Assembly (NCBI GenBank): GCA_002937655.1
Contig: PTKH01000001.1
Location: forward strand, 62,001 to 126,000
Reading direction: 5' to 3'
DNA length: 64,000 nt
DNA from: Alphaproteobacteria bacterium MarineAlpha9_Bin3
Lineage (GTDB): Bacteria; Pseudomonadota; Alphaproteobacteria; TMED109
In this document: positions 57,005 to 58,492 of the stretch, piece by piece
Layout of the letters: each line of letters opens with the position of its first letter
Numbering within the stretch: position 1 is the first letter of the stretch
The notes under the pieces: model-generated
What the model was told of the DNA's origin: nothing
The model's database searches: none
The model's input: only the letters and a program-made list of their open reading frames with translations
Made by a program: the position numbers and the translations under genes

Positions 57005-57772
57005 TTATAAATTTAATATAAAATCTTTGATACTCTTATTAAATATTTCAGGTTTTTCTAAATGTATCAAGTGACCACAATTTTTTATTTCTAAATATTG
57101 GGAATATTTAATTTTTTTGGACATGCTTTTCATAGTCTTAGAGGGTGCTTGTTTATCATTTTCTCCAGCAATTAATAATGTTGGTATTATAATATCTTGT
57201 AATTTATGCCTAAGATCAAAGCCAACTAATGAATATATTGCTGACTTATAAGTGTTTTTTGGAATAGATCCCATAATTTTGCTAGCAAAATTTATAACTT
57301 TTTTATTTGGGTTTGATGACATTATATTTGTAATTGCATTTGTTGATATATCTTTCATTGACTTGCCTTTATTTAAGGGGTCAATACGTGACTTAATAAA
57401 ATTGTTCTGCCAAGATTCGTCACTACTTCCAAATTTTGCACTAGTAGCTATTAAAACTGCTGCTTTAGCAAAATTTACATTTTTAGTTATTATCTCTTGA
57501 ACTATCATACCACCAAGTGAATGGCCAATAAGAACTGGTTTGTTAATATTTTTAGATAATAAAAATTTGCAAATTGTGTCAGCATATTTGTTAATACTTA
57601 TATTTTTAATTTGTCTGGATTTTCCATAGCCTGGAAGGTCTATGGAAATTATAGAAAATGTTTTTTCAAATAGTTTTATCTGGTTAATAAAAGTTTCTGA
57701 TGTGCTTGCTATTCCATGAATAAAAACTATAGACCTTTTATTTTTAACTTTATTACCTATGAAGTTTAACAT
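57005..57772 (-). CDS. Alpha/beta hydrolase
   Basis: A 255-residue alpha/beta-hydrolase and first gene of the six-gene minus-strand operon. The triad is seen as Ser in VLIGHSLGGMIVQE (near 97), Asp in LIAGENDKQAPSKT (near 201) and His in NCGHLIHLEKPE (near 230). Motifs resemble ring-fission-product hydrolases and enol-lactonases such as PcaD. It may release the acid that is then handled by the ligase, but this is inferred from context. 23 bases separate it from the dehydrogenase-like gene. Confidence 0.85.
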   Translation of the reverse strand: MLNFIGNKVKNKRSIVFIHGIASTSETFINQIKLFEKTFSIISIDLPGYGKSRQIKNISINKYADTICKFLLSKNINKPVLIGHSLGGMIVQEIITKNVNFAKAAVLIATSAKFGSSDESWQNNFIKSRIDPLNKGKSMKDISTNAITNIMSSNPNKKVINFASKIMGSIPKNTYKSAIYSLVGFDLRHKLQDIIIPTLLIAGENDKQAPSKTMKSMSKKIKYSQYLEIKNCGHLIHLEKPEIFNKSIKDFILNL

Positions 57773-57903
57773 CTGAATTCTTTCGATTTTATAGTCGTTC
57801 CATTATAACGCTGTAATTATTTTTATTACTAATATATTATATTATTAGTAAGTAATTTTAATTTTAAATAGAATTTAATTCTATGGATCAGTTTAGGTAA
57901 ATT

Positions 57904-58137
57904 ATGAAAAAAAAATCTACAAAAATTTTATCTAATAAGTCGGCAGCTGCAATTAAAGCAGAATTAAAAAAATATTCTGAGACTTTCAATGTAAAAGAGA
58001 CTCAAAAAATAGTAGAAGAAGCTGTTGCAAAAGTTACAGAAGACTTATTAAAAGAATGGATGAATAATAACATAGACAAAGTTGTTAAAAAAGCAATTAA
58101 AGAAGAGTTGAAAAGTATCGCAAAGAAAAAGTTATAA
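57904..58137 (+). CDS. PopZ-like minimal polar-organising protein (DUF2497 C-terminal domain)
   Basis: A 77-residue protein. Its C-terminal part, residues about 44-77 (VTEDLLKEWMNNNIDKVVKK and on to AKKKL), matches the helical oligomerisation domain at the end of PopZ/DUF2497 proteins, whose signature reads LxxWLDxNLPxLVExLVxxEIExI. The N-terminal 40 residues include a basic SNKSAAAIKAELKKYSE segment. Caulobacter PopZ has 177 residues with a Pro/Glu-rich disordered middle, which is missing here. If functional it could assemble at a cell pole. It is encoded convergent to gcrA. Family assignment is by eye. Confidence 0.65.
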   Translation: MKKKSTKILSNKSAAAIKAELKKYSETFNVKETQKIVEEAVAKVTEDLLKEWMNNNIDKVVKKAIKEELKSIAKKKL

Positions 58138-58144
58138 AATATTT

Positions 58145-58492
58145 TTAATTTTTTATATCTTTTTTTCTATATGCTAGCATACAGTGGTCTATGCAATATG
58201 GTTTACCTATTTCTTGTCTTTTTCCACAAAAATGGAATTCATCAGTCCCAGGATCTCCATATGGCCATCTACATCCTTTGATTTTTAGATGAAACATTTT
58301 ATCAGTATTATCAATTTCAACTGGTTTTTTTTCTTTCTTCGTTTCATTAAGACCTAAGCGATTAGCTTTACCTATTACAGCGTTTCTAGTTATTCCTTCA
58401 CCAAGTTTTTCTGCAATATCTCTAGCAGGTATATTTTTACCCCAAAGCTTAGCTAATTTTTTTACTTTTGCTTCTGTCCATTTGAATGCCAT
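58145..58492 (-). CDS. gcrA: GcrA cell-cycle regulator
   Basis: A 115-residue GcrA protein, an alphaproteobacterial sigma-70 cofactor that activates genes with CcrM-methylated GANTC promoters. The N-terminal helix-turn-helix (about 1-48) includes FKWTEAKVKKLAKLWG and GITRNAVIGKANRLGL. The C-terminal cysteine/histidine-rich sigma-binding part shows CRWPYGDPGTDEFHFCGKR and KPYCIDHCMLAY (about 82-107). It is short compared with the about 170 residues of the Caulobacter protein. Convergent with the PopZ-like gene. Confidence 0.93.
   Translation of the reverse strand: MAFKWTEAKVKKLAKLWGKNIPARDIAEKLGEGITRNAVIGKANRLGLNETKKEKKPVEIDNTDKMFHLKIKGCRWPYGDPGTDEFHFCGKRQEIGKPYCIDHCMLAYRKKDIKN

Follow-up and report, generated by a model that had tools for sequence, protein, structure and literature searches.

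The function of PopZ has so far been probed part by part with engineered deletions. The window analysed here, a stretch of 64,000 nucleotides from Alphaproteobacteria bacterium MarineAlpha9_Bin3, contains a short gene in which evolution appears to have made a version of the protein reduced to its oligomerisation domain. A first-pass annotation of the window had described the gene product as a minimal or reduced PopZ. Is this protein related to PopZ at all, and if so, is it the PopZ of its genome? The features that bear on these questions are as follows, "B" being the lineage to which the protein belongs.

57773 to 57903, + strand: AT-rich intergenic region upstream of B (remnant scan, GANTC and promoter scans).
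57904 to 58137, + strand: popZ-like paralogue B, short form, 77 aa, DUF2497/PopZ oligomerisation domain only (Pfam, hhalign, dN/dS).
57925 to 57987, + strand: helix-2 region ILSNKSAAAIKAELKKYSETF, residues 8-28 (alignments A1 and A2; AlphaFold2 helix 14-27, low confidence).
58045 to 58104, + strand: helix 3-4 core motif of DUF2497 LLKEWMNNNIDKVVKKAIKE, residues 48-67 (alignments, hhalign).
58145 to 58492, - strand: gcrA, GcrA cell-cycle regulator, 115 aa (Pfam PF07750, E 1.3e-29; synteny).

The reading frame lies exactly where the first-pass annotation had placed it, and runs over 77 codons from ATG to TAA. Pfam PF10691 (DUF2497, the PopZ C-terminal domain) matches the protein with 35 bits against a gathering score of 27 (E = 2e-8), pairing residues 7-73 with profile positions 2-74 of 75. 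The family match that had been proposed from the oligomerisation signature at residues 48-67 is thereby upheld above the cut-off, and the position of the signature is as it had been given. With the NCBIfam model PopZ_fam (NF052660), the score is 36.5 bits and the match is restricted to the last 72 positions (95-166 of 167); that it falls under the full-length cut-off of 125 is as expected for a domain-only protein. We also built an oligomerisation-domain HMM from 17 canonical PopZ proteins of other families. The 77-aa protein scores 32.9 bits with this HMM, while 1000 composition-preserving shuffles reach 8.7 at most and, of 380 segments in the six-frame translation of the window, the runner-up has 4.2. 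With 0/1000 shuffles attaining the score, a merely compositional or chance match to DUF2497 is ruled out. Finally, hhalign aligns the profile of the short B proteins with canonical PopZ over 78 columns covering helices 2-4 (97.1% probability, E 6e-11). HMM, shuffles and hhalign all indicate that the protein has the three-helix C-terminal oligomerisation domain of PopZ.

The part ahead of the signature is indeed short (47 residues, previously put at about 40). It is not a bare stub, however: the domain HMM and the match between the short-B and canonical PopZ profiles identify it as the helix-2 part of the domain rather than a linker. Residues 8-28 contain the signature of the B lineage, A-[KR]-A-E-x3-[YF]-x3-F, and in the core motif W52, N56 and E67 are invariant within alignment A1. 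The AlphaFold2 monomer, computed from five very similar sequences, has helices at 14-27 and 30-76, at low confidence (pLDDT 62.5, pTM 0.30). A search of solved structures returned no relative, the best match (E 0.13) being an endonuclease and likely due to chance. Short-form B is lysine-rich, and the B proteins of the window's family (f1) have VTEDLLKEW in place of the canonical LLRPxLKEW motif, without its proline.

Neither of the other two parts of PopZ is found in the 77-aa protein. Both the N-terminal client-binding helix (EEILASIRRII) and the disordered acidic proline-rich spacer are absent; there is no proline among the 77 residues and no stretch ahead of the domain, in agreement with the first reading of the sequence. 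An in-frame stop lies one codon ahead of the start, so that there is no hidden in-frame N-terminus. We also looked upstream for any trace of the N-terminal helix and spacer that long relatives of the protein carry (see below), and found none within 900 bp in all forward frames of eight genomes, the best score being 1.2 bits against 56-60 bits for the long-B N-termini, which are themselves part of the model. A mis-called start concealing an N-terminus is therefore ruled out. The upstream region contains no GANTC site and a single weak sigma-70-like match (57766-57795), and such matches are fewer than in shuffled sequence. It had also been claimed that PopZ function normally needs the spacer; for assembly this is not strictly so, as Caulobacter PopZ deleted for residues 24-101 continues to form condensates, which are dense and less fluid (PMC9512792).

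The 77-aa reading frame is a real gene under strong purifying selection. Its dN/dS between species of the window's genus is 0.05-0.16, and five species of that genus retain it, their proteins being 83-90% identical to that of the window. The named database records that match it come from marine MAGs, among them Alphaproteobacteria bacterium TMED109; the order TMED109 branches deeply, close to Rickettsiales, and has a low GC content (PMC8879329, PMC12542740).

Is it, then, the popZ of this genome? In Caulobacter and Magnetospirillum, popZ is located between the outer-membrane efflux gene tolC and valS (PMC6414705). The 77-aa gene is not in that slot but adjoins gcrA. A search of the same genome for a second popZ near valS, as had been suggested, revealed a 104-aa reading frame, A, with a weak DUF2497 match (17.3 bits) and the gene order pcm-tolC-A-valS-ilvD, so that the slot holds another short protein. 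A second, long popZ was to mark the 77-aa protein as an unrelated coiled coil. That argument fails, since with the domain HMM the 77-aa protein scores 32.9 bits and the positional popZ 15.7. Across the window's genus, the ranges are 28.9-37 bits for B and 15.7-17.4 for A. All five members of the genus with B have A as well; two genus genomes have neither, but they are 61-72% complete, and as the genomes compared are mostly MAGs, the lack of A or B from a partial one means little. Throughout the window's family A retains its place between tolC and valS, also in genus g7, where B was not found.

A and short B have the helix 3-4 region of DUF2497 in common (hhalign 94.9%, 41 columns) and differ in the remainder. 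A carries an N-terminal segment and a short spacer rich in lysine, together with an ILTDII motif; neither alignment nor profile comparison reveals a recognisable helix 2 in A of the window's family, which aligns with canonical PopZ over helix 3-4 only (41-49 columns). Short B has helix 2 and nothing ahead of it. The 77-aa protein is thus almost certainly homologous to the PopZ domain and paralogous to the popZ of its genome. Of the description "minimal or reduced PopZ", the first half stands in that the protein is a PopZ oligomerisation domain alone, but it is a separate paralogous lineage and not the reduced popZ of this genome. Given that client helix, spacer and locus were each tested and none was found, the protein should be filed under DUF2497 and not under PopZ in the strict sense.

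The tolC-valS copies of related genomes vary in their own right. In genus g7 (L046, L060-L064), which comprises large-genome relatives in the window's family, this PopZ has 88 aa and a GTG start, with its N-terminal helix about 20 residues away from helix 3-4. In family f19 (L152, L153, L155-L160, L168), it has 108-150 aa, and in several of these proteins an EEILASIRRII-like helix lies just some 15-20 residues from the oligomerisation domain. A PopZ almost without spacer in f19 constitutes an independent natural test of the need for one.

The B lineage exists in two forms. Short B (77-86 aa) occurs in genera g1, g2, g4 and g6. Genera g3, g5 and g8 have long B (144-148 aa), in which an N-terminal segment (MDKRSPEDIRKSIKSLVEEAE...) is accompanied by a charged spacer. 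As called for in the first-pass annotation, homologues from related genomes were aligned; long and short B could be matched over the full length of the domain. A class-wide search also located B in family f19 (about 129-147 aa), which likewise retains PopZ in the tolC-valS slot. Among 385 genomes of the class, the B profile exceeds 100 bits solely in the window's family and in f19; the next best score is 42 bits, and the weaker matches are mostly each genome's canonical PopZ. One weak match (20.6 bits), in family f9, is a 66-aa protein not near tolC or valS (L083:5902-6102, + strand), possibly another very short DUF2497-like protein. We found no description of the B lineage in the literature searched.

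In a tree of 83 columns, all B proteins are monophyletic (UFBoot 96/SH-aLRT 78), which, with so few columns, is support and not proof. Between the window's family and f19, the N-terminal parts of long B are homologous (19.5-25.4 bits, 0/1000 shuffles). The simplest history is therefore a long ancestral B, and most simply the window's clade would have lost its N-terminal helix and spacer. In the tree, short B branches outside long B with weak support, so that formally the short form may be the ancestral one. The N-terminal helix of long B was also considered as the canonical client helix; the likeness is plausible by eye (SPEDIRKSIKSLVEE against PTMEEILASIRRIISE) but unsupported against shuffles.

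The surroundings of B differ between the two families. In the window, B and gcrA are convergent with stop codons 7 bp apart, and this convergent linkage is found in 17/17 B-bearing genomes of the family, with spacings that range between an overlap of 4 bases and a gap of 11 bp. In f19, pilD and/or a secretin gene adjoins B in 18 of 20 loci (pilD-B-secretin, in a type IV pilus cluster), which suggests that the ancestral role of B may be pilus-related. The neighbouring GcrA is itself shortened in the window (115 aa, against frames of 166-175 aa in f19), and its match to PF07750 is split in two, the central part of the model being absent.

What might such a protein do? On balance, we favour reading the 77-aa gene as a second PopZ-like gene for a scaffold protein, paralogous to A and reduced to the oligomerisation domain. 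Taken by itself ("PopTag"), this domain of PopZ forms condensates in human cells, deletions within the C-terminal helices of PopZ reduce condensates (PMC9512792), and the assembly model for PopZ has trimers and hexamers formed through these helices (PMC9926476). By analogy with the PopTag, spacer-deletion and trimer/hexamer work, short B most likely self-associates, a step we hold with fair confidence: its domain would form trimers and hexamers and then larger assemblies, as does that of PopZ. Lacking a repulsive disordered region, it would give a dense scaffold, and lacking a client-binding helix, it would act as a structural or nucleating subunit. Clients would be brought by A, with its N-terminal segment and helix 3-4, or by other partners. 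We lean slightly towards a polar location for this scaffold, and are more hesitant about direct co-assembly with A, which we put forward tentatively. Because the motif proline is replaced and the short form is lysine-rich, assembly of B may also differ from that of PopZ.

Placement could possibly depend on a membrane-anchored zinc-ribbon protein. ZitP binds and moves PopZ even without the N-terminal 26 residues of the latter; ZitP is characterised by zinc ligands C5, C8, C28 and C31, W35, a TM segment and the basic patch K18/R24/R27/R34, and Q at position 27 is a natural change that weakens or abolishes binding of Rhodobacter ZitP to Caulobacter PopZ (PMC5182065). The genome of the window encodes a 105-aa ZitP-like zinc ribbon with a hydrophobic segment and no DUF3426 (L135:888-1205, - strand). 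Read by eye, it has C5, C8, C28, C31, W35 and basic residues at 24 and 34, but L18 and Q27. PF13717 zinc-ribbon matches occur in 6/6 B-bearing family genomes tested and 0/2 g7 genomes without B; ribbons of this kind are widespread. The ZitP-like protein possibly positions short B at the membrane by analogy with ZitP, and with Q at position 27 it is a lead only. As for the client MipZ, the same genome has no clear example: its best PF09140 match reaches 44.6 bits, against 340 bits in f19, and the matches are probably other ParA-like ATPases.

The same observations can be read in other ways. A and B might be the two parts of a split PopZ, A contributing an N-terminal segment and helix 3-4 and B helix 2 and helix 3-4, the two being interdependent and jointly forming one polar scaffold; if true, a scaffold that other alphaproteobacteria build from one protein would here have two components, and we give this a low probability. 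The idea that B is now the main polar scaffold and A a decaying relic we likewise consider unlikely. The difference in domain scores within the window's genus and the missing helix 2 of A would fit such decay, but a relic would hardly be expected in all five B-bearing members of the genus or in a tolC-valS slot kept across the family, g7 retains A where B was not found, and short B has no client helix. Quite unlikely, in our view, is a dominant-negative modulator that, by oligomerising together with A, would cap or dilute the assemblies of the latter, perhaps timed via gcrA. Modulators of this kind would usually be laid out as here, with a second copy alongside an oligomerisation domain that has neither client helix nor spacer, and gcrA is a constant neighbour; yet mixing may be poor with an A that has no recognisable helix 2 in this clade, the convergent arrangement leaves B and gcrA no shared promoter, and no GANTC site precedes B.

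The pilus genes beside B in f19 raise a further reading, that B still serves, as of old, to position surface machinery and does not have the cell-cycle role of PopZ. We judge this improbable: none of the six low-GC family genomes tested, where B lies by gcrA, has the T4P/T2SS ATPase (PF00437), which f19 possesses and the window's own genome lacks. That the gene encodes an unrelated short lysine/glutamate-rich helical protein matching DUF2497 by composition, or is a truncated pseudogene, is suggested by a short, charged product of a low-GC genome. It is refuted for practical purposes by the shuffles and the low scores of all other window segments, by the alignment of long and short B across the whole domain, and by the dN/dS values and the same place of the gene in all sampled genera with short B.

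These findings have a wider meaning. They reveal that PopZ-like proteins form a second lineage, linked with gcrA in one order and, in a further family, with genes of a type IV pilus cluster. Related genera retain long B at the same locus, and cells with short B also keep a second short copy. The series of long B, short B, and A with or without helix 2 thus amounts to a natural experiment on the need for client helix and spacer.

Among the systems closest to the window protein, long B of g3, g5, g8 and f19 has 25-31% identity to it in the shared part, and the lineage signature occurs in both. Long B of g3, g5 and g8 also shares the gcrA linkage, whereas that of f19 lies between pilD and the secretin gene; all long B differ from the window protein in length (129-148 aa) and in their conserved N-terminal helix and spacer. 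Canonical PopZ of Caulobacter and other alphaproteobacteria has an oligomerisation domain homologous to the 77-aa protein over nearly the full Pfam profile, but is much longer (171-322 aa in the 17 class relatives aligned), carries the client helix and the acidic proline-rich spacer, and is encoded in the slot that here holds A. The engineered PopTag is, like the 77-aa protein, the oligomerisation domain alone. Compared by sequence only, the 77-aa protein differs from it in being a natural, selected gene, in its diverged sequence, which lacks the motif proline, and in sharing its genome with a second DUF2497 protein; at this level, short B is the apparent natural counterpart of PopTag.
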